A DNA stretch of 64,000 bases from an uncultured Erysipelotrichaceae bacterium (GTDB taxonomy: Bacteria; Bacillota_I; Bacilli_A; RF39; UBA660), in assembly GCA_902789425.1 (NCBI GenBank), contig CADANX010000004.1:1-64000 (forward strand), in the 5' to 3' direction. The notes under the pieces are model-generated. The model was not told where the DNA came from. It worked only from the letters and a program-made list of their open reading frames with translations, and ran no database searches. Made by a program: the position numbers and the translations under genes. Of the stretch, positions 31,314 through 57,636 are shown piece by piece; the stretch's first letter is position 1, and every line of letters begins with the position of its first letter.

Positions 31314-31336
31314 TTAATATGAAAATAGGTGAGTGT

Positions 31337-38349: not shown

Positions 38350-41300
38350 ATGAGTAAGAAGAAATTATTAACAATTTTTATTATTTTTTCTATAATTGCT
38401 GTTTCAATAAATTTATTTGTTGAAAATATTTCTTCAAATAAAAAAGTAAAAAGCAATATGTTTACTATGCCTATCACTTATGTTATCGTTGATTCTAAAG
38501 CTCCAAAAACAATAAGTATAAGTAATGCTGTAAGAGAAAATAAAAAATACTTTATAGATTTTATTCCAGATGTAAATGTAGAATTAACTCAAAAAGGAAA
38601 TTATTTTGTTGGAAAACTACCTAATTTACCTTTGACAGATAATGTAGTAGAGTATTTATTCACTAAAAATAACTTATATGCAGAAAAAACTAGCGGGTGC
38701 ATTTATAATAAAAAAACAAGAGAAATAAAAATACCTAAAAAGTATTACAAAAAAACTCAAAGAAAATCACAAGTTCAAATGGAAATACTTTCCAAAATGA
38801 ATAAAAAAGATGTTACATCAAATAATATCGTTAGTTATGTAAATGGTAAAAAGAAAAAAACAAAAGTATCTGGATATAATACTGAAACAACAGTTTCTAT
38901 ATATAAATATAACAGTCAAAAATCAGTAGCAAAAAAAGATATTATTGTAAATGTTAATGATAGTTTTTTAAATTTACCTGAAGAAATGTTTGATTTTAAT
39001 TCAAAAGCAGGTACTATTGATATTAAGCTATCTCCACTTGTAATAAAAAAAGTAAAGATAAAATATAAAAGAAATTTGGTATCAACTCTATTAAATGTAA
39101 AAGATGTTCTTGCTGCTTCTTATGCAAAAATGTCATCTGTTACAAAACTTGATAAAAATCCTAATTTAGGTAATACATATAGTAGTAACAAAAAGAATGT
39201 ACCTGTTGCATATAGAGGAAAAGATGCGAATGGAAATACGTTTTGGTATGGTGACACTAGTATAGTAGCAACAGATTCAAATAGTAATTCAACAGGAAAA
39301 CTTAAAAGTGCTGTAACAAAAGATATTGATAATTTTACTTTTTATCAAAGTTGTAATACCAATGATAAAACATGTGTTAAATATAATGAAAACGAAGATT
39401 ATTTTGTTGCTAATATTTCAAATAGAGAAATTAAAGATGCAACAATTCCTGCTAATACATTTATACTTATGTATTGTGCTGAGCATGATAGAACACAAGG
39501 TGGAATAAATGCAAAAATGGATATGACATTTAAAATGATTGCGAAAGGCGATAAATATGTAATTATATCTATTACTACAGATGAAGCTTTTTTTACACAA
39601 AAACCAGCTGGTATTTATAAATTTGTTTGGGATGAAGATTATGGAACAATAAGTGTAAAAAAATACTATTATAATAATGGAAATCGTGATCAAGAAACAC
39701 CTAAAAATGGAACTTTTGGTTTTACGTTATATGAAGATACTGCTTGCTCTGTAGTTGCAAAAGACCAAAAAGTAACAAATGAAAACTCTAATGTTAATTT
39801 TAATAAGCTTCCATATGGTACTTATGGAGTAAAAGAAACTTTATGTGATAATCGTTATTATTATTGTGATACATCTTGTCATTCTGTTACTTTAAATGAG
39901 GATGATGCAAAAAATGAAGATGGAATAAGGCAAGAAATAGTTACTTTAAAATATCATGTTGATGAAAATGGAAATTATTCATCAGATGCAGATAATCCAA
40001 TAAAGAATTATAGAAAATATGAATGCTTTTCAGTAGAAAAAAAATCAGATACATCTGGATCTGATTTATCAAATATAGGATTTCAAGCATCTACAGGTGA
40101 AGTTAAATATACAACACCATCAAGTTCAATTGTAACATTTGGACCTTATCCGGCTGATCCTAATGCAACTTATACATGGAAAGAAATAAGTACTAATGCA
40201 GAACATTATATAGGAAATCAATATGATCACATAGCGGTTAAATATGAGGCTTCATATGCCAATCCATCTAATTATTCAGGTGCATATTGTTCGGTGGGTA
40301 CTCCAAGCGAAGCTATAAACGAACATGTTAAGTATTGTACAAGAATAGTTAAAAAAGACAAGATTACTGATAAAGTAATCAGATCAAAAACTTCTTTATG
40401 TACTCAAGCACAAGAAACTGGACAAAGAAATCCAAATTATGGTTCAATTGATTGTTCAACTATTGCATCTACTGGAAAAGTAAGTAACAAAGTTACAACA
40501 TATAACTTATGTAGTGATCCAAATTGTGCTAATGTTATAAAAACGGGTCTTACTAGTAATGAATTCGGTTTAACAACTATTTCAGGTCTTACTTCATATC
40601 AGGATTATTATATAAGAGAAACTCAGGCTCCTGATGGATATACAGCTGCAGCTGATACTGTAAAAATCCCTAAGGAACAATTACATGAATATAGATCTGG
40701 TTATGATAAATATTGTTCAGATTTATTATCTGAAAATACAAATGATTATTCATTTAATGAAAGCCATTTGGAAGAAAGTGTTAATGCTTCTTCATATAAT
40801 CACAATTTAAATGTATATTTCTTTGGAAAATCAGGTAATATGAGTAGTGATGTTAAAACAAAACTTGCAACATCTATTAGTGAAGTTAATAACAATATTA
40901 GAAGCGAAAACGAAATTCATGCTCAAATGAATGAAAATGGTGCAAATTATACAATTAATCCTACTAAAATTAGATTATTTGAATATACATTAGATAGTTA
41001 TAATGAAGATAGTTCAAGCAAAAAAATGTTGAAAAGTATGCTTAGTAATTTGGATGAAGATGCAGTTTCAAACTTATATGAATATGAAAATGGTGTAAAA
41101 AAACTGATTAATGCTCCATTTGTTATTATTGGAAAGAATGTTTTTTATATAAAAAATTCAAATAATAGAGATAGTTACTATAGTGGTGTTTATAATTTAT
41201 ATAATTTAAAAACCGGTACATCTAATTCAACTGATAGCTTAGAAACTATATATTCAAATAGTATTAGTAATCGTGTTGAAAGTTTTTTTGAAAATTATTT

Positions 41301-43284
41301 AGAAAAAGTAACTGACGAAATAGTATATTCATCTGGTACATTTAGTTATAAAGCTGGACCTAATTCAGTTCCAAATGGAGCTTTTGCATATTATGATTTA
41401 TATAAATATCCAAATTCAGAAAAGATTTTAAATAGAAATGCCAATAATAATTTTAATATTTATGTTTTAACAACGTTGGAAGATGATGCTTTTTCAGATG
41501 CATTATATTCAAATAATTCTTATGATTTTGTAATTGGATCTTCAGACTCTCAAAGAGCAATTGTTTCTGCTTTAAGTAAAGCAATTACTAAACTTAATAA
41601 CGAAGTCTTAGAAAGTGATGAAACTAATTCTTCTGATTATTATAGTTCTAGTATGATTAAGAATATTAATTTAAATCAATCAACAATAAGTAATGGTATT
41701 ACTTTTAGAAATGCAGATTTATATCCAAACATTGGTAATGCATTATCTGGAATACCATATTTTGCTGAAGAAGTTTTACGTAGTTCATATTCAAGTGACG
41801 TATTATCATTTTATTCATATTCATATCCAATTATTTATATTAATAATAGAGCATATTACTATACTAATAATGGACAATCTATAGGAAATGCAATTAATTA
41901 TGGTTATTACTTGAGAGATGGCTCTGATTCATATTTTGGATCTACTGATTATGATGAAGATAAAATGGTTAATTATTTTTATAGTGAACTTAAAAAACAT
42001 GCTATGGCCGTATCAATTCATGATGATTTAGAATCATTAGTAAATCAAGTAGGGGCATATCAATCAATTAGAACACCGATTGGTTATCAAGCTTTAATTA
42101 ATGGAACTTCTGAATATGGTAAACAAGAAACATATGATGGAACTGATGCCGCTGGATTTTTAAGAAGTATTCCTGTTTATAACTATAAATATAAACTTAA
42201 TTGGTATAAAGAAACTGAAGGTGGTGTAAGAGCTGCTGGAGCTAAATTTACAGTTTCAAAAGGTAGTACACAATTACATCATGCTGGAGAAAGTAATAAA
42301 GTTACACTTGCAGATAATAATGGTGTTACTAAAACATGTTATTTCTATTCTACAAATGCTAGTGATTCGACAGAATTCGTTTCAGATGCAAATGGTGAAG
42401 CATGTATTTTAGGCCTTGAAGAAGGTACTTATACAATAACTGAAACAGTGCCAGCATCATATCATACATTTGATTCAAAAACATCAATTAATCAAGTGGC
42501 TAGCGAGAATTTTAGGTCAATAACTAATGAAACAAAATTTGTTAATTATGAAACAAAATTTGAGTTTACTAAAACAACTAGTAATGATAATGCAGAAAAT
42601 GCATTAACAACAACATTCACAGCAAAATTACCTGACGGAACTACAGGAAATATAAGTTATAAAGATTTAACAACAAAAGAACTTATGAAAATACCATTTA
42701 GAATATATGCAAAAAATTCTTCTAATCCATTAACATTTGTATTAGGATCAGATGGTGTTTATGAGTATACTGGTAATTTAACAGATGGCCCTGGTAATAT
42801 AGGTGCAGTAACTGATTTATTCTTAAATGAAAATAGAAAGTTATTCGTAGAACATTTACCAATAGGAACATATGAAATTAAAGAAGCGGATACTCAAGGC
42901 TGTTCAGGAGCTAATTGTGAAAACTGTAAAGGTTATTATTATCCTGAATATGATAAAGTAGGTTATGAATTTACAATTAGTAATACATATAATTCAAAAG
43001 CAACTCAAACTTTAAATAATATTAATACTGAAATTAATTTTACAAAAGAAGATTTATATAGTTATATAGATCCTTCTGATAAAGTTAATTTTGAAGGTGA
43101 AGAAGAAGTAAAAGCATTTGATAGTATTACATTTAAAATAAAAGATGCAAATAATACATACTTAAAACTACAAAAAGTAGGTGACTATGGTAATTGTAAT
43201 ACAACTAGTGGTTATAGTTTATATAGATATGTACCATCTGATAAAGGTGATGGAGTAGGTTACCAAATAATCATCCTATTGTGA
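38350..43284 (+). CDS. Giant Cna-B/SpaA-domain surface protein, 5' part (gene split by frame change)
   Basis: 1644 residues up to a premature TGA. The N-terminal signal/anchor helix covers about 5-25. Residues ~30-260 are a beta/Lys-rich region shared with the 50351 protein (both contain RE-I-K/I-I-PKKYY and end KKVKIKYKRN-like before a second short hydrophobic stretch). SpaA/Cna-B-type domains follow, each ending in G-T-Y-x-x-K/T-E-T (LPYGTYGVKETLC, EGTYTITETVPASYHTF, IGTYEIKEADTQGC). A ~330-residue insert (about 800-1130) without Cna-B features separates them. Cys residues cluster in these domains (ETLCDNRYYYCDTSC; CSGANCENC). In the last domain the reading frame changes just after LYRYVPSDKGDGVGY, so the end IIILL is not native. 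AGAGGTAG ribosome site; TATAAT at 38317-38322. Confidence 0.8.
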   Translation: MSKKKLLTIFIIFSIIAVSINLFVENISSNKKVKSNMFTMPITYVIVDSKAPKTISISNAVRENKKYFIDFIPDVNVELTQKGNYFVGKLPNLPLTDNVVEYLFTKNNLYAEKTSGCIYNKKTREIKIPKKYYKKTQRKSQVQMEILSKMNKKDVTSNNIVSYVNGKKKKTKVSGYNTETTVSIYKYNSQKSVAKKDIIVNVNDSFLNLPEEMFDFNSKAGTIDIKLSPLVIKKVKIKYKRNLVSTLLNVKDVLAASYAKMSSVTKLDKNPNLGNTYSSNKKNVPVAYRGKDANGNTFWYGDTSIVATDSNSNSTGKLKSAVTKDIDNFTFYQSCNTNDKTCVKYNENEDYFVANISNREIKDATIPANTFILMYCAEHDRTQGGINAKMDMTFKMIAKGDKYVIISITTDEAFFTQKPAGIYKFVWDEDYGTISVKKYYYNNGNRDQETPKNGTFGFTLYEDTACSVVAKDQKVTNENSNVNFNKLPYGTYGVKETLCDNRYYYCDTSCHSVTLNEDDAKNEDGIRQEIVTLKYHVDENGNYSSDADNPIKNYRKYECFSVEKKSDTSGSDLSNIGFQASTGEVKYTTPSSSIVTFGPYPADPNATYTWKEISTNAEHYIGNQYDHIAVKYEASYANPSNYSGAYCSVGTPSEAINEHVKYCTRIVKKDKITDKVIRSKTSLCTQAQETGQRNPNYGSIDCSTIASTGKVSNKVTTYNLCSDPNCANVIKTGLTSNEFGLTTISGLTSYQDYYIRETQAPDGYTAAADTVKIPKEQLHEYRSGYDKYCSDLLSENTNDYSFNESHLEESVNASSYNHNLNVYFFGKSGNMSSDVKTKLATSISEVNNNIRSENEIHAQMNENGANYTINPTKIRLFEYTLDSYNEDSSSKKMLKSMLSNLDEDAVSNLYEYENGVKKLINAPFVIIGKNVFYIKNSNNRDSYYSGVYNLYNLKTGTSNSTDSLETIYSNSISNRVESFFENYLEKVTDEIVYSSGTFSYKAGPNSVPNGAFAYYDLYKYPNSEKILNRNANNNFNIYVLTTLEDDAFSDALYSNNSYDFVIGSSDSQRAIVSALSKAITKLNNEVLESDETNSSDYYSSSMIKNINLNQSTISNGITFRNADLYPNIGNALSGIPYFAEEVLRSSYSSDVLSFYSYSYPIIYINNRAYYYTNNGQSIGNAINYGYYLRDGSDSYFGSTDYDEDKMVNYFYSELKKHAMAVSIHDDLESLVNQVGAYQSIRTPIGYQALINGTSEYGKQETYDGTDAAGFLRSIPVYNYKYKLNWYKETEGGVRAAGAKFTVSKGSTQLHHAGESNKVTLADNNGVTKTCYFYSTNASDSTEFVSDANGEACILGLEEGTYTITETVPASYHTFDSKTSINQVASENFRSITNETKFVNYETKFEFTKTTSNDNAENALTTTFTAKLPDGTTGNISYKDLTTKELMKIPFRIYAKNSSNPLTFVLGSDGVYEYTGNLTDGPGNIGAVTDLFLNENRKLFVEHLPIGTYEIKEADTQGCSGANCENCKGYYYPEYDKVGYEFTISNTYNSKATQTLNNINTEINFTKEDLYSYIDPSDKVNFEGEEEVKAFDSITFKIKDANNTYLKLQKVGDYGNCNTTSGYSLYRYVPSDKGDGVGYQIIILL
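43251..43284 (+). other. Frame-change junction within the giant gene, with missing segment
   Basis: The downstream frame opens at 43251 (stop TGA at 43248-43250) and the upstream frame closes at 43282-43284; the two overlap here. Read across, GYQ is followed in the -1 frame by NNHPIVTYTIP, which equals the KHPIVKYNIP end of the next repeat. But about 50-70 residues expected between these points, including the (I/L)-x-(N/H)-L-x-RG-x-x-Y-x-x-EE core, are absent. A deletion not divisible by three is the simplest reading. Confidence 0.75.
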
Positions 43285-46200
43285 CTTATACAATACCAAA
43301 AATTGGTAATACTGAAGTAAGTAATAATAATCGTCAAGTAATATCAGATACACCTACAAGACTCGTTATCCACAAGAAAGATGATAGAAATACGGTAAAT
43401 GATATAACTGAATCATCTGATAGAAAAGAAACAGCGATATTTGAAGTTTATAGATGTACAAATTTAAATCAAAAATGTACATATAACTCATCAACAAAAG
43501 AAGCATTAAAATTCTATAATTTAGCATATATTGATGATGATAATGAAGATGCTGGTGAAAGAGTATATAAATATATAACTACATCAGATGAACCAAATGT
43601 AACTAATTATGTAACAAGACTTGTTCTTAATGAAAAAGGTAGAATTATATTAAGATATTTACCTGGTAATTATAAATATGTAGTTGTTGAGAGAAATGCT
43701 CCAGATGGATACTATAATCTAGAAGGAGAGAATGCAGAACTTGAAACATATAATGATAGTTCAACTACAAATAATTCATATAATTTTACAAATATTCATA
43801 CTCAGATAAAATTTGTAAAAGATGATATTTACAAATATTATGAAAAATATGATTTAGATAAAGTTAGTAGTATTAATGAAATATTTGATTCAATGACATT
43901 TGTACTTAGAAATAAAAATGGTCAAATAGTAAAATTATCTAAAGTACAAGATGGTGAATATAGATTTATTGGACAAAATGGTAGTGCTAGCTCAAATACA
44001 GTAGAAGAACTTCATACAAAAGATGGTGAATTTATTGTTACTCATCTTTATAGAGGAGAAACATATTATATTGAGGAAATTAGATCAGATACATTAGGAA
44101 ACTTTATATTACCTAATAATATAAATAATACTTCTCTTGTAGAAAGTGAAGCAGGGAATCTTAAAAATAATAAGCATCCAATAGTTAAGTATAATATTCC
44201 TTTAACTGTTCCAAATGATATTCAAAAAAGATCACTTACTCAATTAATAGAAAATGCACCAACTAGAGTAGTTTTTGAAAAAAGAGATGCTATAACAGGA
44301 GAATTAATTGATGACCTTGTAAATACAACTAATGATCCTTCTTCTGAAGGAAATCAGTATAATAATGTTTATACAACATTTAATGTATATAGATGTGATA
44401 AAGATGTTTCTACTTGTTCAATAAGCAATGGAACTTTAGTATATTTTACAGAAAGAGAATATGTTAATGACTTAACAACTGATATAACAAATGTTACACC
44501 TCCTGTATATGTATATAAATATTCTAAATTAAACCAAAATGCAGTTAAAGATTTACATACTGATAGAGGATTACTTGTTCTTGCATATTTACCATCAAAA
44601 TATAAATATGTACTTTATGAAACTGTGGCTCCAAATGGATACTATAATCCAACAACAGTAGAGGGTCAAACTGAATTTACTGTTAAAGATTCATCTATAG
44701 ATGATGATATTACATATGAATCATTAACTACAAAAGTAGATAATGAACCAACTAAGATTATATTTAAGAAAAAAGATATGTATGATTACTATGATGAAAC
44801 TGATATTGATAAAATAGACAGTGAAGTTAAAATGTTTGATTCTATGAGATTTGTTCTAAGAAATAAAGAAGGAGAAATCTTAAGTCTTAAATGTACAGAA
44901 AATGGAGTGGTAACAGATGCTTCATCAAATAATTGTAAAACTGGTGAATATAGATATTTACCATATAAAAATAATGAAAATTTAACAACTAGACTTCAAA
45001 CTATAAATGGAGAGTTTAAAATAACTCATTTATATAGAGGAGAAACATATTATATTGAAGAAATAAAAGAAGATACTGAAGGTGACTTTATATTACCTGA
45101 TTACTTAAATTTTGCTGATTTACCATTTGATAATAAAGGACATCCAGTAGTTAAATATGTTCTTCCAGAAAATGTTGATACTGATGAATCAATAACTAGA
45201 GTAATGGAAAATACTCCAACTAGAGTAATATTCCAAAAAAGAGATAGTAAATATAATTATTTAATTCCAGATGAAACAACAACTTTTGAAGTATATCAAT
45301 GTAGTAATGAAGTAGATAGATGTACACCAGAAGAAGAATCAGCTAAATTAATGTATTTTAAACCTAGAGCAACAATAACAGGTGATAATGAAGATTCTGG
45401 TAAAGAAGTATATAGATATTCAAAACTAAATAATCAAAATGGTGCAGTTAAAGATCTTCATCCATATTTAGGTGAACTTATACTTAGATATTTACCTGCT
45501 AAATATAAATATGTTTTAGTAGAAACAGTTGCGCCAAAGAATTATACTATGCCAACTGGAATAAATGCATATACATACTTTACTATTTCAGAAACTAAAG
45601 TACAGGTTGATGAACTTGATGTTCCAAATAAACCAACTAGTGTAGTACTTAGAAAATATGATGATAAAGGTAATTTATTAACTGGTGCTAAGTTTAAGGT
45701 TTATAAAAAGACAGCTAAAGAAGGAGAAACAACATCTTGTAATCCTAATTTAAAAGCTATGGATCAAGTAATGGAAGAAGTTAAACTTAAAACAGTATAT
45801 GAAGGTATATATGAAGCAAGAGAAACAACAGATACAAGTGTTATTACAACATGTACAAATAGAGATGGACTAAATTGTAATGAACTTACTGGAACTCTTA
45901 CTTATGAAAAATATGTTGATAGTTGGCTTGGACTTAATAATGAAGAAAATCCTAGTCAATTAAAAACAAATCATATTAATTTATTAAATGAATTTAATGA
46001 TGAAATAGAAACATATACACAAATTAAAGAAGGCGAAGCATTAATTCAATATCTTGAATATAATCATTGTTATATTTTTGAAGAAGTCGAAGCTCCTAAA
46101 GGATATTCACTTCCATCTAAAAAAGAAGATAGATTTACAATGCTTGAAATAAAAGAAAATGATACTTATGATCATACGACTTATAAAACATTTGTAAATA

Positions 46201-46727
46201 TGCCTACGCCATATCAATTTTATAAATTTGATGAATTTAATAATTTACTTGATGGAGCTAAGTTTAAACTTCAAAGACTAAATAAAGAAAAAATTTATGA
46301 AGATGTAACAGTATCTGAAGATTTAGATAAAGAAGAAGAACTAGCAGATGGAAGTAAAGTTTATAGAATTGATGAAAATACTGATAATACTACAATTGAA
46401 ACATTTAATGGAACAGCTATTATATATTACTTAAGCAAAGGGCAATATAGAGTAGTTGAAACTGAAGCACCTGCTGGAAAAGAACTTGGTAAGACACTAA
46501 ATGTAGCTACATTCTTTGTTAATGATAAAGGTGAAGTCTTTGGTAATAGAATAATTACTAATAAGAGTGAAACTAAAAAAATAAAGAGAAAAAATAGTGA
46601 TAGTGCTGCTTTAATAGTAAACATTCAAACAGGTCAAACATTAATAAGATATGGTCTAATATTATCAGTAATAACAGCATTATTGATATTACTATATATT
46701 ATAAAAATTAAATTTATTAAAAAATAG
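43281..46727 (+). pseudogene. Giant Cna-B/SpaA-domain surface protein, 3' part with NIQTG sorting signal
   Basis: Open frame 43251-46727, first possible start GTG 43281 with no ribosome site; it continues the 38350 gene. It encodes about six tandem units that start N-x-P-T-x-x-x-(F/L)-x-K-x-D (TPTRLVIHKKDD, APTRVVFEKRDA, EPTKIIFKKKDM, TPTRVIFQKRDS, KPTSVVLRKYDD, MPTPYQFYKFDE) and end with a Glu-containing strand such as YVLVETVAPKNY. This Lys near the start and Glu near the end match the isopeptide-forming pair of Cna-B/SpaA domains. The C-terminus is NIQTG, a hydrophobic helix, and KIKFIKK: a sorting-signal layout with a non-standard motif. A hairpin with GAAA loop follows. Confidence 0.75.
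45210..46727 (+). repeat. Region paralogous to 54505-56152
   Basis: The last ~500 residues of the split and intact giant proteins align almost without gaps, e.g. LEYNHCYIFEEVEAP, TYDHTTYKTF, GQYRVVETEAPAGKELGK and NIQTGQTLIRYGLI. DNA identity is visibly high, more than in their N-terminal halves, which suggests recent duplication or gene conversion of the 3' ends. Confidence 0.8.
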
Positions 46728-46760
46728 GATTTAGTAGAAATACTAAATCTTTTCATTTTT
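46728..46760 (+). terminator. Terminator
   Basis: GATTTAGTA - GAAA - TACTAAATC: a 9-base stem closed by a GNRA tetraloop, followed by T-rich sequence. Confidence 0.9.
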
Positions 46761-46789
46761 TTGATTTTTATAGCAAAATGTGGTATTAT
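46761..46789 (+). promoter_or_regulatory. Sigma-A promoter of the first Ig/ChW gene pair
   Basis: TTGATT (46761-46766), 17-base spacer, TATTAT (46784-46789) with TGG directly before it (extended -10). Confidence 0.75.
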
Positions 46790-46819
46790 TTTAATCAAGA
46801 AACACAGGGAGGTATTTCT

Positions 46820-47974
46820 ATGAATAATTCAAAAAAATTAAAACCTATTTTATTAAAAAAAGGGGTATTAGCTGCAATGCTTGGTGCAAGTTTAACTTTA
46901 TCAACAGTATATGTTTCACCAGTAGAACCAACAAAAGTAGAAGCTGCTAATAAAGATAAGAAAAAACCAAAAATAACTTTTAAAGGAAAAAGTAAATTAA
47001 CAGTAGAAGAAGGAGAAACAATTACAATTCCTAAAACTACTTATAGTGATAATTTAACAAAAAAGAAAAAATTGAAATTAGGCGTAACAGTAAAAAAAGG
47101 AAAAAAGAATTATAAGACTATAGCAAATACTATTAAAAAAGCAACTTTAAATAATAAAACAGCATCTGTTGAATTTCCAGAAGATGGTACTTATAAAATA
47201 AATTATACAGTTACAGATTTAGCTAAAAATGTAGCAACAAAATCAAGAACAGTAATAGTATCTGATAAAGAAATAATAACAGAAGAACAAATAATAACAA
47301 AAGAAGACCCAACAACTGAAATAACTATAACTACTGAAGAACCTAAAAGAGAAGTAGTTACAACTGAAGCAACTACTGAACAAACAAAAACAGAAGAACC
47401 AAAAACTGAGGAACCTAAACCATATGAAAAGACTGAAGAAGAAAAAAATATGGTTGATTTAACAGATAAAGAATATAAAGATTATGGTTATAAAGTATTA
47501 GGAAAAGATGAAACTGCGCCATTTGACTTAAGTTCTGATAATGAAACTGAAGATGCATCTATATCATTTGAATATGACTATAGATATTTATGTATTGATA
47601 GATATTCTGATACATTTAAAAATTTAGATTTTATAAAATACTTAGGAAAAATAACTGCAACTGATAAAGATGGAAATGATATATCAAATTCAATTGTTAT
47701 TAAAGTGCAAGGTGATATTGATTCTTCTATTAATAATATTTATGTAAATGGAATAGATATTAATATTTTTGCAAAGACAACTGATGGAAAAAATGTAAAA
47801 AGAAATATTTATGTTAATTTTGTAGATTGTTCTGATTTAAATGATTTTAATTATTTAATAAGTACAAATCCAAAAGTATATGGAAGAGTAGATGAATTTT
47901 CTTTCAATAATGAAAGAAATACTGATAAAGTATATAAATTATGTTTAGATTATAAAAAAGAAGATTTAGCTTAA
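46820..47974 (+). CDS. Exported Ig-like protein with Thr/Glu-rich linker, copy 1
   Basis: 384 residues. Signal peptide: basic KKLKPILLKKG, hydrophobic VLAAMLGASLTLSTVYV, and a likely cut near VEA-ANK. The first mature domain is a Lys-rich bacterial Ig-like domain (KITFKGKSKLTVEEGETITI to GTYKINYTVTDLAKNVATKS), like DUF5011/Big-type modules. A linker of Thr, Glu and Pro (TEEP, TTEAT, KTEEPK) follows, then a ~150-residue C-terminal domain not recognised. No anchor is visible; the Lys-rich domain could bind anionic wall polymer. Start by GGGAGGT before 46820. It is paired with the ChW-like gene 24 bases downstream and has a paralogue at 48654. Confidence 0.78.
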   Translation: MNNSKKLKPILLKKGVLAAMLGASLTLSTVYVSPVEPTKVEAANKDKKKPKITFKGKSKLTVEEGETITIPKTTYSDNLTKKKKLKLGVTVKKGKKNYKTIANTIKKATLNNKTASVEFPEDGTYKINYTVTDLAKNVATKSRTVIVSDKEIITEEQIITKEDPTTEITITTEEPKREVVTTEATTEQTKTEEPKTEEPKPYEKTEEEKNMVDLTDKEYKDYGYKVLGKDETAPFDLSSDNETEDASISFEYDYRYLCIDRYSDTFKNLDFIKYLGKITATDKDGNDISNSIVIKVQGDIDSSINNIYVNGIDINIFAKTTDGKNVKRNIYVNFVDCSDLNDFNYLISTNPKVYGRVDEFSFNNERNTDKVYKLCLDYKKEDLA

Positions 47975-47998
47975 AATATAAGTTAAAGGGGTATTCAT

Positions 47999-48538
47999 AT
48001 GAAAAAAAGATATTTAGTTATAACTTTTATAATAATATTATCACTTTTAATTATTTATAATAGAATTAATTTTAATGATAATATGCAAAGGTCGGGTATT
48101 TATAATATTAATTATAAAACTATGAAACAAAATAATAATTGGACTGTATTTAAAGGTAATGGAGTTAGATCAGGTAATAAGTCTGATTCTATAAAAAATA
48201 TGTTTATTAAAACAAAAAGTCCTGACTTTTCATATAAGTTTTATACTAATAAAAAATGGACAAAAGATATATTAACTAATCAAAAAATAAATAATAATAA
48301 ACCTCTGCAAGGAATAAAAGTATTTATTTATAAAGATTTAGCAAAAAAATATAGTGTATGTTATAGAACATATAATATCAAAAATGGATGGCTTGGATGG
48401 TCATGCAATGGTCAAATAAATGGTAACAAAAAGTATGATATTAGTGCTATTGAAATAAAGGTTATTCCTAAAAATATAGTTACAGAAGAATACCTAAAAG
48501 ACTACAATAATTCATCAAAAACACAAATAAATTTCTAA
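47999..48538 (+). CDS. Membrane-anchored ChW-like repeat protein, copy 1
   Basis: 179 residues: one N-terminal helix (about 4-22), then three ~37-residue units (about 35-73, 77-113, 117-157). The third, CYRTYNIKNGWLGWSCNGQI followed by NGNKKYDISAIEIKVI, has the shape of the clostridial hydrophobic W (ChW) repeat (Y-x-x-H/Y-x-x-x-x-GW-x-x-W-x-x-(N/D)G-x-x-(A/S)G-x-x-x-x-x-x-(I/L)-x-AI-x-I-x-(I/L)). The first two are diverged but keep the Trp and the I-x-I ending. ChW repeats are surface modules thought to mediate adhesion or wall/polymer binding. AAAGGGG ribosome site. Its paralogue is at 49804. Confidence 0.72.
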   Translation: MKKRYLVITFIIILSLLIIYNRINFNDNMQRSGIYNINYKTMKQNNNWTVFKGNGVRSGNKSDSIKNMFIKTKSPDFSYKFYTNKKWTKDILTNQKINNNKPLQGIKVFIYKDLAKKYSVCYRTYNIKNGWLGWSCNGQINGNKKYDISAIEIKVIPKNIVTEEYLKDYNNSSKTQINF

Positions 48539-48574
48539 AAGAGCAAAAAAAATGCAATTTTTGCTCTTTTTTTA
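48537..48574 (+). terminator. Terminator
   Basis: AAAAGAGCAAAAA (48537-48549) and TTTTTGCTCTTTT (48558-48570), then T residues. Confidence 0.9.
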
Positions 48575-48653
48575 TATAAAAATAACGTAAAACTCTTTAA
48601 AAAATCTTGACAATGTGCTAAAATTAAAAATGATGAAATGGGAGGTAAATGTG

Positions 48654-49811
48654 ATGAAAAATATTTTGTCAAATGAAAAAGAATTAAAAGGAAGAAAGAT
48701 GAAACCATCTTTAATCAAGAAAGGGTTAATTGCGGCGGCTCTAGGATTAACACTTTCATCAGGAGTAGCTACAGCTATTCCAGTGGAACCTGCAAAGGTT
48801 GAGGCGGCCAACAAAGATAGAAAGAAACCAAAAATAACATTTAAAGGAAAGACAAAGTTAACAGCAGAAGAAGGAGAAAAAGTTACAATTCCTAAAACAA
48901 ACTTTAGTGATAATGTAACTAAAAAGAAAAAATTAAAATTAGGCGTAACAGTTAAAAAAGGAAAGAAGAGTTATAAAACTATAGCTAATTCAATAAAGAA
49001 AGCTACATTAAATAATAAAAAAACTTCAGTAGCTTTTCCAGAAGAAGGAACATATAAAATAACTTATACAGTTACAGATTTAGCTAAAAACGTAGCGACT
49101 AAAGCAAGAACAGTTACAGTAACTGATAAAGAAATAATCGAAGAAGATACAATGACACCAAAAGAAGATCCAACTACAGAAGAACAAAGAAGAGTAGTTA
49201 CAATTGAAACACCTACTGAACAAAAAACAACTGAACAACCAAAAGTTGAAACACCAACAGTTGATTTATCTAAATATGGTAAAGTAGAAAAAGTAACAGT
49301 TGATGGAAATACATATAATGTTATTTCAAATGTTGATAGAAATAAAGCATATAGTATAGAATCAAGTGCTCAATATAAAAGTAAGAGTATTTCTAAATGG
49401 AAAATATCAAATCTAGTATATGATGAAACTAAAAATGATTATATTACTGATCATTCATATTTAGGTCTATACGGTAAAATATCTGTAATTGATAAAAATG
49501 GTGTTGATTGCAGTAATAATGTATATGTAATGGAATATGACGAATTTAATTTTAAAGTTGCAGCAGTATATTGTATTGACTCTGAAAATAATTTTTTGAA
49601 AATAATGGAAACAAATATAATGACTGATCCTAACACATGGGTTTATGGGGAAGATGCAGTATTTGATGAATCTGAATTTAATTATATAGATAAAAATAAA
49701 GGAGTTTATATTCAAGGCGACAAAGGTGCAGAATTATCTTTGAATGATAATATTAAAAAGAATAATACTAAAATTCTTGCAATGAAAAAGGAATGGTACG
49801 AAAATGTCTAA
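48654..49811 (+). CDS. Exported Ig-like protein with Thr/Glu-rich linker, copy 2
   Basis: 385 residues, paralogue of the 46820 protein: same signal peptide type (MKPSLIKKGLIAAALGLTL), same VEAANKD-RKKPKITFKGK start of the Ig-like domain, same TVTDLAKNVATK end. The linker has TEEQ/TEQ runs. The C-terminal ~160 residues have diverged strongly from copy 1. An extended -10 (TGCTAAAAT, 48616-48624) precedes it; GGGAGGT lies before the ATG at 48654. The codons around 48720-48810 are GC-richer than the rest (GCG, GGC). It overlaps the next gene by 8 bases, so the two are translated together. Confidence 0.78.
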   Translation: MKNILSNEKELKGRKMKPSLIKKGLIAAALGLTLSSGVATAIPVEPAKVEAANKDRKKPKITFKGKTKLTAEEGEKVTIPKTNFSDNVTKKKKLKLGVTVKKGKKSYKTIANSIKKATLNNKKTSVAFPEEGTYKITYTVTDLAKNVATKARTVTVTDKEIIEEDTMTPKEDPTTEEQRRVVTIETPTEQKTTEQPKVETPTVDLSKYGKVEKVTVDGNTYNVISNVDRNKAYSIESSAQYKSKSISKWKISNLVYDETKNDYITDHSYLGLYGKISVIDKNGVDCSNNVYVMEYDEFNFKVAAVYCIDSENNFLKIMETNIMTDPNTWVYGEDAVFDESEFNYIDKNKGVYIQGDKGAELSLNDNIKKNNTKILAMKKEWYENV

Positions 49812-50340
49812 AAAAAGAATATGTATAGTTTTTGCTATTATATTTATTGCTTTATTTACATTAGTTAATTTATTTGATAATGATAAAGTGATGAATATAA
49901 AATACAGAATCTATACAAAGGAAAGTGGTTGGTCTAGTTGGTGCAAGAATGGCACAACTTGCGGTAATAAAAAAGATAAAATAAAAGGAATTCAAATTAA
50001 TACTTCTGAATCGAACCCAATAATTTATAATTATTATACATTAGATAAAGAATGGGATAATTCATTCACAAGTAATGGCAATAAAACAGAAGATGATGAT
50101 ATTTATGGAATAAAAATGTCTTTATATCATGGAACTAGTAAATATTATGATATATGTTATAGAACATATAATAATAAAAATGAATGGTTAGAATGGAATT
50201 GTACTAATGAAATGATTAGTGGTAATAAAGATATACCTATTTCTGCAATAGAAATTAAAATTATTCCAGATGATGTCGTAAAAAGTGATTATTTAAAGAA
50301 TTATAATTTTAGTGAAAATGAATCAAGTATTGGGTTCTAG
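49804..50340 (+). CDS. Membrane-anchored ChW-like repeat protein, copy 2
   Basis: 178 residues, paralogue of the 47999 protein: N-terminal helix (about 5-23) and three ChW-like units (about 31-67, 73-110, 114-156), the first with SGWSSWCKNG-x-x-CGNK and the last with CYRTYNNKNEWLEWNC then ISAIEIKIIP. Pairs of Cys flank the Trp loops in this family (WCKNGTTCG; ICYRTY...WNC), suggesting disulfides. It overlaps the upstream Ig-like gene and is followed 10 bases later by the giant gene at 50351, forming an operon. Confidence 0.72.
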   Translation: MSKKRICIVFAIIFIALFTLVNLFDNDKVMNIKYRIYTKESGWSSWCKNGTTCGNKKDKIKGIQINTSESNPIIYNYYTLDKEWDNSFTSNGNKTEDDDIYGIKMSLYHGTSKYYDICYRTYNNKNEWLEWNCTNEMISGNKDIPISAIEIKIIPDDVVKSDYLKNYNFSENESSIGF

Positions 50341-50350
50341 GAGGTACATA

Positions 50351-53300
50351 ATGAAAAAAAGAATAATAAAAATTATATCGTTATTTTTAATAATTATTCT
50401 TTTTTATTTTATATTTGATACTTATACCTTTAATAAAGAAAGAAAAGTTAAGGGTGGAAAATATAAAATAAACATAGTTTACATGCTTATTGAAGATAAC
50501 AAAGATACAAAAAATGTGAGTTTTGATAATTTTAGCCCTGCAGTTGAAAATTCGATGTTTCATGTTCATGTTATTGAAGATTTAAAAAAAGTTGGAGATA
50601 ATTATGTAGTAAAATTAAAAAACTCAAATGATATTGTATTTAATAATATAAAAGATTATACTTTTGCATTAAATGATATTAATGGTAATGTTTTAAAAGA
50701 TGTTAAATTTGATAAAAATACTAGAAGAATAATTATTCCTAAAAAGTATTATGAATCAAAAAAATATAAAAAATATAAAAATATTACATTAAAATTTCAA
50801 ACTATAAGCAGTGTAAAAAAGAATGATTTAAAAAATGTTAAATTATCTGTTGAAACAAGTAAGTTTTTTAAATCAAAAAAGACGGTATATGTTGACAATA
50901 ATGAAGTAAATACAAAAGTATCTTTATTTAAATATAAGACTGGGAAAGGTATTATAAAGGAAGATTTATTAGTTTATTTAAATGGTAGTAAAAAACCATT
51001 GAGTACTGATAAATATTATTATGATCAAAGATCTGGAACAGTTGATATTATAAATACAAGTTCAGCATATATCAATAGTATAAAAATAAGAGTAAAAAAA
51101 GCAGCTCTAATTAAAAGATTTTTGTTTTTTGGATTGAACTTGGTAGATGTTGAAGCTAAATCTGCATATAACGTTGTAGGTACATTTACTGATGTGAATG
51201 GTGGAGTTTCTAATTCGGATATGAAAGAAAATGCAAATACTGTTAGCGTAAATGCTCCATATTTTTATTCACATGATTCCAACTCAATACCATATTATTT
51301 AAATAATACTAATACTTCATATTGGAAAAATAAAAACTATAATTGTGGTGGTAAAGTATCTTCAAGTTTAGATTGTAGCAGTACAAATAATACTCAATAT
51401 TATTTTAATGCTTCGACTGATGCTACTGCAAGAAAAGCTTTAAAAAGTGCACTAGAAAATGCAAAAAAGGCTTCACCAGGTGGTGCTTCTTTACTTGATT
51501 TCTTAGTAAAGGTCGACGGATATAATGGCGCTTTAGAAGATAAAAAGTTTAAGGCAACAGTTGGTTCTGGTGATGATGCAAAAACAAGAACTATATCAAT
51601 TCAATTTTATGATGATTGGTTAGCATTATATTGTTCTGATGCAGAACATGCACAAGATAATAATTCAAAAACTGGTTTATCAATGAAATTTAAGATTTAT
51701 TCAGTTGATTCTAATTCATTGACAATTTATGTTTATCAGTCTGATACTGCCGGTTCACAATATTCAGTTGGATATTTTTCGTTCAAGAAAACAGCAGCTT
51801 CATTAAAAGTGAAGAAAAAGAGTTATGGTATATATAATTATGATTCGACAATTGGTGCCGGATCTGATTTAAAAGTTTCTGATATAGTATTTAAGGTTTA
51901 TGAAACATATAATACTACAACAAAAGATTGTGAAGGTTATGTAAAAACAGCAGTTACTGATGCAAATGGTATTGCTACATTTACTGGATTAGATGCTTCT
52001 GAAACTTATTGTATAAAAGAATCATATTATGAGTTTGACAGTGATAGTCCTATCTCTAGTTATGAATATGTAAGAGTTAATAATATAACAGATGTTGCTT
52101 TTACTTCAGCAACACCAACTCCAGGTAATACAGGAAGCGGAGCTTATGAGACAACTTTTGGTAAAGCTAAGCAATGTACAACTGGTGCTTCAGGCTCTAG
52201 TAATACTTGTGAGTATTACAATACTTTAATAAGATATTGTTTTAATGTAACTAAGAAAGATTTAGTTAATCAAAGTGGTGTATCTTTTAATGATGGAACT
52301 TTTAAGGTATGTGATTCATCTGGAAATTGTTCTACTAGTGTTGGCAACGTAGTTACAATGGCTGGATATCCATATTCAAGTGTAAAAAATGGTCTTACAA
52401 TTAGTGAATCAAATGATACTACACCAGTTAACTCAGGTAACGAAATATATAATTCTGGAACTTTTTATGGTTCTGATGGATCAAGTAAAACGTCAACTAC
52501 GATACCTTTTTCTAAGGCAATAACAATGACATTAACAAAAGTATCTGATGGTGTATTTAAATGGGTATGTCCAGCATCATCTAACACAACAGAAGTATAT
52601 AATGTAAAAAAATATCAATGTCTTAAAGTGAAAAAAGTAGATAAAGATACAGGAAAGGCTTTACCGGGAGCTGTATTTACTTCAACATGTTCAAATGGTC
52701 AAACTGATACAAAAACTACAGGAACTGATGGAATAGCAACATTGTATGCTGGTACTGCAAGAAATGGAACTACAACAACATGCTCTGTAACAGAAGTAAC
52801 GCCACCAACAGGTTACGGTTCTGCTAGTCCTTCAACAAAAACTGGATTAGGAGTATTTACAATGTCTGATTCAACAGCAGCTGGTTATCATGGACAAGGA
52901 GATACTGCAGTTTACAATGCTGTGTCAACATGGTGTGGAGTAGATGTAACTAACGATTTTACTTATCAGAATGCTTCTTTAAAACTAAATTGGTATAAAG
53001 TAGACGAAGATGATAATTTATTGACAAATGTAACTGAAAATGGGGCACCAGCGGAATTTACATTAACTGATAGTGATGGTACTGTTATAAAACATAATGG
53101 AACCAAAGTAGCTACATCAAATGTTGCTGGTACAGAAACAAGAAATTGTTATCAAGCAGATTCTAATGGAACATATACTACATTTTTATCAGATACTGAT
53201 GGTCAAGTATGTGTTAGAGGATTAAAAGATAAAAATGGTTCTGGTCAAACTTTAACATATACAGTAACTGAAACTAAGCCAGCTAAGTATCATACTTTTG

Positions 53301-56152
53301 GTTCTTATAAAAGTAGAAGTAATTTAGTTGTATCTTCAGATTTTACACCAATTAGTGCTTCAAATAAATTTATTAACTTACCAACTAAGTTTAAATTTAA
53401 AAAGTATGTTGAAGATGTTGAAGGTAGTCAAGAAGATGAAACTGAATATACAATTAATGGAGAAACAAAAACATTAAAAGAGTTAACAACTGAAGAACTT
53501 AAGAAAATAACATTTAAAGTATATCCTGAAAATTCAAATAATGCTTTATCATTTGTTTTAGTAGATGGTATTTATGAGTATTCAGGTAATACAATTGATG
53601 GTCCTGGTACTAATGGTGCCACAACTGAATTACATTTAAATGACGCTAGAGAAATTGATATATATCATTTACCACTTGGTAATTATTCAATAAAAGAAGT
53701 TGATTCATCAAGTTGTCAAATTGGAACTACTACTGGATATGGAAATGTAACTAATCCAAGTACAAATCCAAATAGCGCTGCTTCTTGTGATAATTCAAAT
53801 GGTAATACTGGAGCATGTATTGGTTATTATAATCCAGATTATAGTACTGGTTCATCTCATCAATTTACTATAGATACTTGTTCAAATAAATCTGCAACAA
53901 CAGAAGTTTGTGCAGCAAAAACTGAAGAAGTTAGCCAAAGTTTAGTAAATAAACCAACTGTAGTAATGCTTACTAAAAAAGATTTTTATCATTACGATGA
54001 TGCTTCTGATATAATTGATTCAGATCGTGATCAAGATTCAAAAGAATCTAATGTTCAATTTGAAAATGCTAAAGAACGTAGTGATTTTGATAGAATAGAT
54101 TTTAAAATTTATGAAGGACAAAGTACAACTGCTTTAAATCTTATATATGTTGGAAATAGAACAGAAGATTTGGCAGGAAGAAGTGAAGTTGATTGTAAGT
54201 CTGATAAAGATTATGCTTTATATAGATATGTTCCTGGATTATCATTATCTACTGGCGTTGCTGCTGACATATTTAGTGGTGATATAGGTGATGTTAATCA
54301 AACTATTCATACATGTGGTGGTCATATTAAAATTGAAAACCTATGTAGAGGTAATAAATATACATTTAAAGAAGAAAAGGTACCAGATGATTCAGTTTAT
54401 GTAAAAGAAGATACTGAAGATACTCCAACTCAAGTATGTTTTACAGTTCCTTGTTCTGATCAAGGTACAGTAACTACTTCAAGTACAACTCATATTATTA
54501 ATGATAAAGGTACTAGAATTAGATTTGAGAAGAGGGATGGAAAGTATAATTATCTGATACCGGATGAGACAACAACATTTGAAGTATATCGTTGTCCTAA
54601 AAATAATCCAAACTGTCATCCAACAGATTTTGGAACTTATGATGAAGAAAGAAGAAAACTTGTTATTGATGTAGATAATGCTGAAAATGACGGACTTAAA
54701 TTAATTAAGTTTGCTCCAAGGGCATATTTATCAAATGATAGAGAAGATGGAACAAATGCAGCTCATCCAGTTACATCTCAAACTGATGTTGAAACACAAT
54801 ATCAATTATATACTGCAATGAGTGATAGTGATGCTTCTGGAAAAAATAAGTGTTCAAATGATTTAGGTGATACTAATTGCTATGTAACTAGTTTACATCC
54901 TGATCATGGTGTACTTATTCTTAGATATTTACAAGCTAGTGAAAATCAAGGTTATACTTATGTACTAGTTGAAACAGTAGCTCCTAAGAATTACACAATG
55001 CCATCTGATGCAAATGTTGAAACTGCATTTACAATAACAAATCAAACTGTTAATGTTAAAAGTGTAGATGTTCCTAATAAACCAACAAGTGTTGTTCTAA
55101 GAAAATATGATGATAAAGGAAATCTATTAACAGGTGCTAAATTTAGAATTTATAAAAAGAAAGATTCAGCTAGTGATCCTAGCAAATCTTGTGTTGCTGG
55201 TCTTAAAGCAATGGATCAACCAAGAGAAGATCAACCTATGAAACTTAAGACAGTTTATGAAGGTATATATGAAGCCAGAGAAACTACTGATACTAATATA
55301 ATTACTACATGTACTAATCGTGATGGTCAAAATTGTAATGAACTTACAGGTACACTTACACATAGTAAATATATGGATGATTGGGTTAATTTAACTGCTG
55401 GTTCAACAACACTAGTTAATAGTGAAAATGATGAAAAAGAAATATATACACAAATTCAAGAAGGTGAAGCATTAATTCAATATCTTGAATATAATCATTG
55501 TTATATCTTTGAAGAAGTTGAAGCCCCTGAAGGATATTCACTTCCTGCAAAAGAAGAAGATAGATGGTCAATGATTGAAATAAAAGAAAATGATACTTAT
55601 GATCATACAACTTATAAAACATTTATAAATATGCCAACACCATATCAATTCTTCAAATATGACGAATTTAATAAATTATTAGATGGAGCTAAATTTAAAC
55701 TTCAAAAATTAAATTCTGAAAAGAAATATGAAGATGTTACTGTTTCTGAAGATACAGCAAAAGAAGATGAATTAAAAGATGGAAGTAAAGTTTATAAAGT
55801 TGATAAGGATACAAGTAATTTAACTATTGAAACTCATAATGGTACTGCATTTATTTATTACTTAAGTAAAGGACAATATAGAGTAGTAGAAACTGAAGCA
55901 CCAGCTGGAAAAGAACTTGGTAAAAACTTAAATGTAGCTACATTCTTTGTTAATGACAAAGGTGAGGTATATGGTAATAGAATAATTACTAATAAAGAAA
56001 AAACAGTTAAAATAAAGAGAAAGAATAGTGATACTGCTGAATTTATAGTTAATATTCAAACAGGTCAAACATTAATAAGATATGGTTTAATTATTTCTAT
56101 AATAACAGCACTTATTGCAGCACTAATGATATATAATAATAAAAGAAAATAA
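50351..56152 (+). CDS. Giant Cna-B/SpaA-domain surface protein with NIQTG sorting signal (intact)
   Basis: 1933 residues, intact paralogue of the split gene at 38350. It has an N-terminal signal/anchor helix (about 5-22) and a Lys-rich region with IIIPKKYYESKKYK. Several SpaA/Cna-B-type domains follow, many Cys-bearing (ETYCIKESYYEF; KKVDKDTGKALPGAVFTSTC; TTTCSVTEVTPPTGYG). Toward the end come the tandem N-x-P-T-x-x-x-x-x-K-x-D units, and from about 54505 it is nearly identical to the 3' half of the first gene. The C-terminus is NIQTG, a hydrophobic helix and NNKRK. It contains the LYRYVPG-x-(L/S) segment and the following ~70 residues lost in copy 1. Start at 50351 with TAGGAGG before it; an ATG at 50312 overlaps the previous gene. 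No sortase gene is in the window. Confidence 0.85.
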   Translation: MKKRIIKIISLFLIIILFYFIFDTYTFNKERKVKGGKYKINIVYMLIEDNKDTKNVSFDNFSPAVENSMFHVHVIEDLKKVGDNYVVKLKNSNDIVFNNIKDYTFALNDINGNVLKDVKFDKNTRRIIIPKKYYESKKYKKYKNITLKFQTISSVKKNDLKNVKLSVETSKFFKSKKTVYVDNNEVNTKVSLFKYKTGKGIIKEDLLVYLNGSKKPLSTDKYYYDQRSGTVDIINTSSAYINSIKIRVKKAALIKRFLFFGLNLVDVEAKSAYNVVGTFTDVNGGVSNSDMKENANTVSVNAPYFYSHDSNSIPYYLNNTNTSYWKNKNYNCGGKVSSSLDCSSTNNTQYYFNASTDATARKALKSALENAKKASPGGASLLDFLVKVDGYNGALEDKKFKATVGSGDDAKTRTISIQFYDDWLALYCSDAEHAQDNNSKTGLSMKFKIYSVDSNSLTIYVYQSDTAGSQYSVGYFSFKKTAASLKVKKKSYGIYNYDSTIGAGSDLKVSDIVFKVYETYNTTTKDCEGYVKTAVTDANGIATFTGLDASETYCIKESYYEFDSDSPISSYEYVRVNNITDVAFTSATPTPGNTGSGAYETTFGKAKQCTTGASGSSNTCEYYNTLIRYCFNVTKKDLVNQSGVSFNDGTFKVCDSSGNCSTSVGNVVTMAGYPYSSVKNGLTISESNDTTPVNSGNEIYNSGTFYGSDGSSKTSTTIPFSKAITMTLTKVSDGVFKWVCPASSNTTEVYNVKKYQCLKVKKVDKDTGKALPGAVFTSTCSNGQTDTKTTGTDGIATLYAGTARNGTTTTCSVTEVTPPTGYGSASPSTKTGLGVFTMSDSTAAGYHGQGDTAVYNAVSTWCGVDVTNDFTYQNASLKLNWYKVDEDDNLLTNVTENGAPAEFTLTDSDGTVIKHNGTKVATSNVAGTETRNCYQADSNGTYTTFLSDTDGQVCVRGLKDKNGSGQTLTYTVTETKPAKYHTFGSYKSRSNLVVSSDFTPISASNKFINLPTKFKFKKYVEDVEGSQEDETEYTINGETKTLKELTTEELKKITFKVYPENSNNALSFVLVDGIYEYSGNTIDGPGTNGATTELHLNDAREIDIYHLPLGNYSIKEVDSSSCQIGTTTGYGNVTNPSTNPNSAASCDNSNGNTGACIGYYNPDYSTGSSHQFTIDTCSNKSATTEVCAAKTEEVSQSLVNKPTVVMLTKKDFYHYDDASDIIDSDRDQDSKESNVQFENAKERSDFDRIDFKIYEGQSTTALNLIYVGNRTEDLAGRSEVDCKSDKDYALYRYVPGLSLSTGVAADIFSGDIGDVNQTIHTCGGHIKIENLCRGNKYTFKEEKVPDDSVYVKEDTEDTPTQVCFTVPCSDQGTVTTSSTTHIINDKGTRIRFEKRDGKYNYLIPDETTTFEVYRCPKNNPNCHPTDFGTYDEERRKLVIDVDNAENDGLKLIKFAPRAYLSNDREDGTNAAHPVTSQTDVETQYQLYTAMSDSDASGKNKCSNDLGDTNCYVTSLHPDHGVLILRYLQASENQGYTYVLVETVAPKNYTMPSDANVETAFTITNQTVNVKSVDVPNKPTSVVLRKYDDKGNLLTGAKFRIYKKKDSASDPSKSCVAGLKAMDQPREDQPMKLKTVYEGIYEARETTDTNIITTCTNRDGQNCNELTGTLTHSKYMDDWVNLTAGSTTLVNSENDEKEIYTQIQEGEALIQYLEYNHCYIFEEVEAPEGYSLPAKEEDRWSMIEIKENDTYDHTTYKTFINMPTPYQFFKYDEFNKLLDGAKFKLQKLNSEKKYEDVTVSEDTAKEDELKDGSKVYKVDKDTSNLTIETHNGTAFIYYLSKGQYRVVETEAPAGKELGKNLNVATFFVNDKGEVYGNRIITNKEKTVKIKRKNSDTAEFIVNIQTGQTLIRYGLIISIITALIAALMIYNNKRK

Positions 56153-56163
56153 AGAGGGATAAT

Positions 56164-56814
56164 ATGAAAAAGAATAATAAAATTAATTTTGACATTTTAA
56201 AAAGAATATTTATTGTTTCAGTAATAGTTGCATTAGTGCTTTCTCTTTTACTGTTTATCTTAAATAGAACAGTAGATTATAGTTCTCAAACTTTAAAATC
56301 TAATAAGAAAACAATATTTACTATTGATGACTTAAAAGTTAATAACTTAAAGTTTGGTGATAACGAGAAAACAGTTATTAAAGAACTTGGAAAAGCTAAG
56401 AAAGAAAAGAAAGAAACTAAAAATTCTTTTAGTTATAAAATATTAACTTATAAAGGACTTGAACTTACTTTAAGAGAAAACTATAGTGATTATATTTTAG
56501 TAGGTGCTAAATCTACTAGTAGGAAGTATAAATTATCTAGAGATGTTAGAGTAAATGATAATGTACTTAAAGTTATTAATAAATTTAATGTAACTAATAA
56601 GAAGGGTAGTTATATGTATGGTAATTATACATCTAATGCACTTTCTCAAGCTGAAATAACTGATAATATTTATTTTGGATTAAGAACTAAAAAGCAATTA
56701 ATGTATATTAATAGAGATTCTGTTTCTGGTAGTATTACAAATGTTGCTGAACTTAATATCAAATATAAATATGGAAAAGTAAAAATGGTAAAATGGAGTT
56801 ATGATTTTAATTAA
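56164..56814 (+). CDS. Membrane-anchored protein at the end of the surface operon
   Basis: 216 residues with one N-terminal helix (about 14-34) and an external domain. LKVNNLKFGDNEKTVIKELG recalls the G-x-x-x-x-x-V-x-x-x-LG-x-P motif of small periplasmic/extracellular modules (SmpA- or CAP-associated-like), repeated as RDVRVNDNVLKVINKFN. Function unknown. It starts 11 bases after the giant gene, AGAGGGAT ribosome site, so it is the last gene of the operon 48654-56814; a terminator spans its stop codon. It might help assemble or anchor the giant protein, but this is only positional inference. Confidence 0.7.
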   Translation: MKKNNKINFDILKRIFIVSVIVALVLSLLLFILNRTVDYSSQTLKSNKKTIFTIDDLKVNNLKFGDNEKTVIKELGKAKKEKKETKNSFSYKILTYKGLELTLRENYSDYILVGAKSTSRKYKLSRDVRVNDNVLKVINKFNVTNKKGSYMYGNYTSNALSQAEITDNIYFGLRTKKQLMYINRDSVSGSITNVAELNIKYKYGKVKMVKWSYDFN

Positions 56815-56847: not shown

Positions 56848-57636
56848 ATGAGTAATAATTATAAGTTTTTTAGTAGTTTTATAATTGGAATATGTGCAAT
56901 TGCACCAGCAATAAGTGGGAGTGTTATTGCTACGTTTTTAGGTATATACGATTATGTATTATTTATATTAAATAGTAGTTATTCTATTTATATTAAAATA
57001 AAAAAACTATTTGTAATATTCTTAGGATTTATACTTGGTGTATTAATATTTGGTAAGGTAATGTATCTTTTATATTATAAATATGAGATACTTATTAGAT
57101 ACTTTTTTATAGGACTAATATTTGGTAGTATAAGACCTTTTATAAGTAGATTAAAAGGTAAAATAAATATCTTTTATTTCTTATTATCTCTTATTATTTC
57201 ATTATCTTTTTTTTATATAAATAATAACTTTATTACAACATTAAAAATCTCTTATTTAACTATATTTTTAGGTGGTTTTTTATACATTTTAGGTAAAATA
57301 CTACCTGGTATAAGTAGTTCATCTTTTTTACTTATTTTAGGTATATATAAATACTATTTATTATTTTTTAATAATCCATTTGTATTTGTTATTAAGTATT
57401 ACAAATTTATATTTATTTTTCTTTTAGGTGCTTTATTATCTTTTATTATTTTTATAAAATTTATTAATTATTTATTAAATAAAAATTATAATAAAACATA
57501 TAGTTTTATATTAGGATTAATTGTTAGTTCTATTATTTATATTTATCCTGGTTTTATTTTTAATAAAATATATATTATTTCTATATTAATAATGATTCTA
57601 TCTTTTACGTCTACAAGCCTTATAAAACTAGGGTAA
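56848..57636 (+). CDS. DUF368/PopT-type polyprenyl-phosphate transporter
   Basis: 262-residue integral membrane protein with about eight helices. The DUF368 signature appears twice as an inverted-repeat pair: IGICAIAPAISGSVIATFLGIYD near the start and GKILPGISSSSFLLILGIYK in the middle (each split here). DUF368 proteins (PopT) take up undecaprenyl phosphate from the outer face of the membrane for reuse in wall synthesis. The typical P-G-x-S-G-(S/G) is preserved in part. It seems leaderless (see the -10 box). UppP in this window acts one step earlier in the same cycle. Confidence 0.85.
   Translation: MSNNYKFFSSFIIGICAIAPAISGSVIATFLGIYDYVLFILNSSYSIYIKIKKLFVIFLGFILGVLIFGKVMYLLYYKYEILIRYFFIGLIFGSIRPFISRLKGKINIFYFLLSLIISLSFFYINNNFITTLKISYLTIFLGGFLYILGKILPGISSSSFLLILGIYKYYLLFFNNPFVFVIKYYKFIFIFLLGALLSFIIFIKFINYLLNKNYNKTYSFILGLIVSSIIYIYPGFIFNKIYIISILIMILSFTSTSLIKLG

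Follow-up and report, generated by a model that had tools for sequence, protein, structure and literature searches.

The window analysed here, the whole 64,000-nucleotide stretch (contig C4 of a 1.03-Mb genome), carries a surface-protein locus that, judged from its sequence, appears to be a giant TIE-like (thioester/isopeptide) adhesin operon with conserved companions and possibly a new thioester-like head. Our best explanation, to which we give a probability of about 0.5, is that the genes at 48654-56814 make a giant fibrillar adhesin of the TIE kind that is anchored by a sortase through a variant sorting signal. After export, the giant would be fixed to the wall by one of the genome's two sortases, whose genes lie elsewhere. 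Lys-Asn isopeptide bonds would harden the CnaB stalk, which would keep the head at a distance from the cell. The invariant lone Cys and the Gln of the head would form an internal thioester and bond covalently to a surface amine, which may belong to the host, to mucus, to feed or to a bacterial surface.

Gene order and operon structure

Seven features, all on the forward strand, occupy positions 38350-56814. Their order and coordinates had been given in a sequence-only reading of the window and hold: giant 1, Ig-like 1, ChW-like 1, Ig-like 2, ChW-like 2, giant 2 and, at the end, a membrane protein of 216 aa. The tight packing described for 48654-56814 is likewise confirmed, with one 8-base overlap and gaps of 10 and 11 bases, and this region is likely co-transcribed. 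A terminator-like hairpin of 13 pairs with a T run (48537-48570, forward strand) lies 3′ of ChW-like 1, and a promoter-like site matching the consensus (TTGACA-16-AATGAT, 48607-48634, forward strand) lies upstream of Ig-like 2. Both lie just 5′ of 48654 and would fit a separate transcription unit, but promoter-like and terminator-like sites each occur at close to chance frequency in the scanned region (4 of the latter found vs 3.1 expected).

The order of 48654-56814, namely Ig-like, ChW-like, giant and small protein, is found complete and collinear in another genus (G255, locus L062), with an SdrD-like gene in the same row. Genus-wide searches recovered giant sequences in 12 of 12 genomes, and the small protein in 12 of 12 as well. 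The gap from giant to small protein is mostly 7 to 14 bases (13 loci measured); the gap from ChW-like gene to giant is -11 to +13 bases where the former directly precedes (10 loci measured). Across the relatives, the set of genes that is commonly retained is not the one first proposed for this locus: the giant and the small protein are kept throughout and the SdrD-like protein usually, while the Ig-like protein is an add-on of two lineages.

Relatives with a gene for the small protein are MAGs of uncultured Bacilli/Firmicutes; ruminant-gut sources predominate, for example rumen, duodenum, jejunum or ileum of sheep, cattle, roe deer or water buffalo. Since the taxon sampling consists of MAGs, several of which are incomplete, absences are provisional.

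Architecture of the giants

Giant 2 (50351-56152, forward strand) is intact, with 1933 aa arranged as an N-terminal TM segment, an N-domain of about 230 aa, a head, a SpaA/CnaB stalk and an NIQTG sorting signal. Giant 1 had been taken for a single gene; in this assembly it consists of two open reading frames in different frames. The N-terminal part (38350-43284, forward strand, 1644 aa) holds the N-domain, the head and the start of the stalk and stops without a sorting signal, and the C-terminal part (43281-46727, forward strand, 1148 aa) carries NIQTG at 46620-46634 and no export signal. Aligned to the intact 2351-aa giant of G005 (L024), the first frame extends to residue 1166 and the second starts at residue 1240, leaving about 73 codons absent at the junction. 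With these residues missing and no homopolymer at the junction, a slippage tract is ruled out as the source of the split. Each half is otherwise open, which suggests a recent break or an error of assembly. Giant 2 would be the working copy in this assembly, and giant 1 a broken or mis-assembled one. A frame change splits the giant of G011 as well (L033 1919-1922), separating a part with a TED-type head from the remaining stalk.

The assignment of Cna-B modules to the giants is borne out, as SpaA/CnaB (PF17802) scores above cut-off in all three giant frames, with 3 passing stretches in 38350-43284, 5 in 43281-46727 and 5 in giant 2. The two giants also have common ends, as had been noted: 29% identity over 245 aa at the N-terminus and, for the last 1.24 kb at the DNA level, 78%, with a dN/dS of 0.31. 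In a tree of the C-terminal ~440 aa the two window giants are sisters (support 100/100), but in the N-terminal tree giant 2 groups with the giant of G255, that is, of another genus. This discordance fits recombination or gene conversion of the stalk and anchor, and we infer that these parts were exchanged while the heads diverged.

A rival account takes the two giants and two pairs as no more than a lineage-specific duplication with one copy decaying, and the companions as unrelated neighbours. The split of giant 1, the sister C-termini next to a giant 2 N-terminus that groups with G255, and the rarity of the Ig-like gene agree with it. Nevertheless, the adjacency of ChW-like gene and giant, and of giant and small protein, recurs in two genera, the genes lying about 10 bases apart, and we consider duplication alone very improbable.

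Giants with a head of the kind seen in the window (window-type) have a long N-terminal TM segment with no clear signal-peptidase site. Most of them also show a V-x-A motif, like a processing site, at the border of N-domain and head (giant 2 residue ~265, window ~51131).

A candidate compact thioester head

The head of giant 2 (residues 261-470, 51131-51760, forward strand) contains a lone Cys428 (51632-51634) and Gln470 (51758-51760); in giant 1 the corresponding stretch from Cys376 (39475-39477) to Gln417 (39598-39600) spans 39475-39600 on the forward strand. This head is uncatalogued and occupies the position of a TED, after the TM segment and the N-domain and before the first CnaB domain. 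Across 15 window-type heads, with a mean identity of about 20%, only two residues upstream of the first CnaB Lys are identical in 15/15, a Cys and a Gln. In a default MAFFT alignment the Gln is kept in 15/15 and the Cys in 14/15, and alignment programs may favour pairing Cys with Cys and Gln with Gln. The number of Cys is odd in all 15 heads, so that the invariant one is unpaired by count. The Gln stands shortly before the conserved CnaB Lys in 20/20 giants, and later positions hold a Y (20/20) and an E (19/20). In known TEDs, Cys and Gln are likewise the sole fully conserved residues (PMC4450167).

Homologous giants carry thioester-type N-terminal domains in five cases, one by Pfam and four by motif. 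The L086 giant begins with Pfam TED_2 (E 2.7e-26) in the place equivalent to the window-type head. The giants of G003, G004, G008 and G011 have a TED-type Cys (AFC[LV][DE]P or GLCLQP) and Gln (QxxxxW) by motif; TED_2 was not reported by Pfam in those of G003, G008 and G004. Within the genus, all 14 matches to the head profile fall within giant frames, and the genomes without a match are G003, G004 and G011, whose giants have TED-type heads. The window-type head is nearly confined to this genus and the genus of G255.

Homology of the window-type head to TED was rejected at the profile level: the Pfam TED search of the 15 heads and a PDB profile search gave no match, and hhalign against the five TED-type heads returned a probability of 0.1%, with no profile-profile match. 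The Cys-Gln distance is 39-61 residues in window-type heads vs 113-179 in TED-type giants, and inspection of the heads showed no helical TQxxPhiW motif like that of known TEDs. Because no profile matches and the distance is much shorter, we infer, on sequence grounds, only that the head may form an internal thioester through its Cys and Gln. We tentatively suggest, as possible rather than probable, that it represents a third class of bacterial thioester domain, a compact one (Cys-x39-61-Gln, with the Gln on the strand into the first CnaB) that replaces the canonical TED in homologous giants and would give covalent adhesion in this uncultured lineage. A His follows the Cys within 5 residues in 12/15 heads, which could point to metal binding or another chemistry.

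A more conventional reading is a sortase-anchored fibrillar adhesin whose head binds its receptor non-covalently, the invariant Cys and Gln being structural. It would explain the missing TED profile match and the high divergence of the heads, as is often seen in receptor-binding tips. Such a head is harder to reconcile with barely alignable sequences that keep exactly the unpaired Cys and the Gln in 15/15, and with a Gln that stands, relative to the CnaB Lys, where TEDs have theirs. We see it as a real alternative whose chances fall short of even.

Sorting signal and sortases

The NIQTG motif of giant 2 (56051-56065, forward strand) is followed by a TM segment and a KRK tail. More generally, in these genomes the giants, like several further large surface proteins, end in [NTEG]I[QSTR]TG, a hydrophobic stretch and basic residues, with one SVQTG, one NIQTC and one GPRTG as exceptions. 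NIQTC takes the place of NIQTG at the end of one of two tandem giants in G010 (L029 7251-13421). Sortase genes are present in 12/12 genomes of the genus; this genome (G000) has two sortases, one of class B (TIGR03064) at C2:215792 and one at C6:27815 that scores below every class cut-off. The giants combine an LPXTG-like motif, a TM segment and a basic tail with sortases in the genome, and recognition is predicted.

The nearest studied motif is NVQTG, proposed for C. difficile CbpA and not cleaved by SrtB in vitro, and for this reason recognition of NIQTG by a sortase is putative (PMC4155245). The resemblance to CbpA extends to the N-hydrophobic-QTG pattern, the TM segment and the basic tail, together with a class B sortase in this genome, whereas the motif here is NIQTG, with genus-wide variants (PMC4155245).

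The anchor also bears on whether the locus could encode a sortase-assembled pilus, with giants as shaft or tip pilins and the SdrD-like, Ig-like and ChW-like proteins as further subunits or base. The giants are weakly like the SpaH/EbpB major pilin model NF033902 (63 and 22 bits, cut-off 95), and there are several surface proteins per operon. Nonetheless, no sortase gene was found in the window operon, the sorting signal is on the giants only among the operon proteins surveyed, and the giants, at 1300-3400 aa, exceed the usual size of pilins. With no dedicated sortase in the operon and NF033902 below cut-off, we set the pilus aside as improbable and keep the TIE-like adhesin as the preferred reading.

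Sorting signals of this kind also occur elsewhere. Contigs C2 and C9 of this genome (G000) end in near-identical 276-aa fragments with NIQTG and a TM segment (L060 8886-9716, L061 8380-9210), representing a further sortase substrate in at least two copies. In G002 and G006, EIQTG proteins of 886-892 aa adjoin an SdrD-like protein of ~1380 aa (L067 2886-9674, L068 6266-15828), in gene surroundings homologous to 25-38 kb of the window.

Relation to known adhesins

The sequence-only reading had named no described system with this make-up. For the giant this was too strong, as large CnaB-stalk, sortase-anchored adhesins are known as TIE or fibrillar adhesins (PMC4450167, PMC6194298); for the accessory gene set around it, no description was found in the literature searched. 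Like the TIE proteins SfbI, BaTIE and TIEpLS20 (PMC4450167, PMC6194298, PMC8092201), the giants have a head with an invariant Cys and Gln, a CnaB stalk and a sortase-type C-terminus, and the homologous L086 giant has TED_2. Unlike them, the window-type head is missed by TED profiles, has a Cys-Gln spacing of 39-61 instead of >100, sits behind a TM segment and N-domain, and comes with ChW-like, small-protein and SdrD-like partners.

Two structural classes of covalent thioester adhesion have been described, chiefly from pathogens, with one conjugative plasmid as a further source (PMC4450167, PMC6194298, PMC8092201). If the proposal for the head is true, a compact thioester class in gut bacteria whose genomes measure 1 Mb would broaden this picture, and the canonical and new heads on homologous stalks would form a swap series on the requirements of the thioester fold. 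The locus further offers a repeatable pairing of an adhesin with a putative membrane-tethered ChW-like module.

Companion proteins

ChW-like 1 (47999-48538, forward strand, 179 aa) and ChW-like 2 (49804-50340, forward strand, 178 aa), the latter with an N-terminal TM segment and ChW-type repeats, are indeed paralogues, with 39-41% identity. Their PF07538 scores of 17.5 and 21.2 bits are below the cut-off of 22; the predicted structure adds support to the ChW label. In BFVD, the predicted model (pLDDT 87) has matches to five phage proteins, endolysins and a lysozyme among them, with E values of 2.8e-7 to 8.1e-5 and TMq 0.51-0.63. These matches support a wall-binding module of the ChW type that a TM helix would hold in place. 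A PDB fold search with this model gave no match, and a PDB sequence search with the ChW-like and small proteins gave no convincing one. We take the ChW-like protein as a membrane-tethered, probably wall-binding partner of the giant. Translated just upstream of the latter, it would bind a wall polymer and probably provide a wall contact close to where export or anchoring takes place.

ChW domains have been predicted to serve in surface anchoring or protein interaction, their ligand being not known (PMC5817068). The ChW-like proteins resemble ChW proteins and phage endolysin ChW domains (PF07538; PMC5817068) in their W/G-pattern repeats and in a predicted fold that matches endolysin regions; in contrast to ChW endolysins, they are small single-TM proteins without an enzyme, coupled to an adhesin gene and just under the HMM cut-off.

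The idea that Ig-like and ChW-like proteins serve the giant as base, wall contact or assembly factor survives in part. For the ChW-like gene, conserved synteny is found: standalone copies occur in 7/12 genus genomes, and 10/10 of these copies lie at a giant locus. G002, G006, G007 and G010 have giant and small protein with no ChW-like match, which leaves a dependence of the giant on the ChW-like protein unsupported and speaks against an obligatory assembly factor. Multi-ChW-like proteins of 562-712 aa are encoded away from giants in G001 (C5), G003 (C7) and G011 (C18).

For the Ig-like gene, the expected synteny with giants largely fails. Ig-like 1 (46820-47974, forward strand, 384 aa) and Ig-like 2 (48654-49811, forward strand, 385 aa) are paralogues as claimed, at 50% identity; the latter shows an export-signal-like N-terminus, an Ig-like domain, a Thr/Pro/Glu linker and a C-terminal domain, without a wall anchor. 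Their label lies just at the Pfam cut-off of 27 (PF16403), with 28.3 bits in Ig-like 1 above it and 26.9 in Ig-like 2 below; the L062 homologue reaches 36.8 bits. Full-length relatives were found only in this genome (two in the window, a third alone on C12) and in one other genus, beside the giant of G255 (L062). Given this rarity, we reject an obligate Ig-like/ChW-like pair.

A gene omitted from the sequence-only reading encodes an SdrD-B-like surface protein of 1570 aa (31319-36031, forward strand; PF17210, E 2.5e-13). It adjoins the giant set in many relatives, and in the window two other genes part it from giant 1; it is usually a member of the set and is displaced here. In G001 an SdrD-like and small-protein pair occurs without an adjoining giant (L065 9213-14720).

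The small membrane protein (56164-56814, forward strand, 216 aa) has an N-terminal TM segment and tandem alpha/beta-sheet units, and would be a general partner of the giant/SdrD-like set. It is nearly confined to this genus and the genus of G255, and a Pfam search gave nothing above cut-off. Its predicted model (pLDDT 82) consists of two alpha-plus-four-strand units, as in SAV1118, BLIP-like and DUF4309 YjgB folds, but the likeness found by Foldseek is weak (best E 2e-3, TMq <=0.35). This genome encodes a second paralogue (L059 9066-9782). The gene 3′ of the operon (56848-57636) is weakly like polyprenyl-phosphate transporters (72 bits, cut-off 400).
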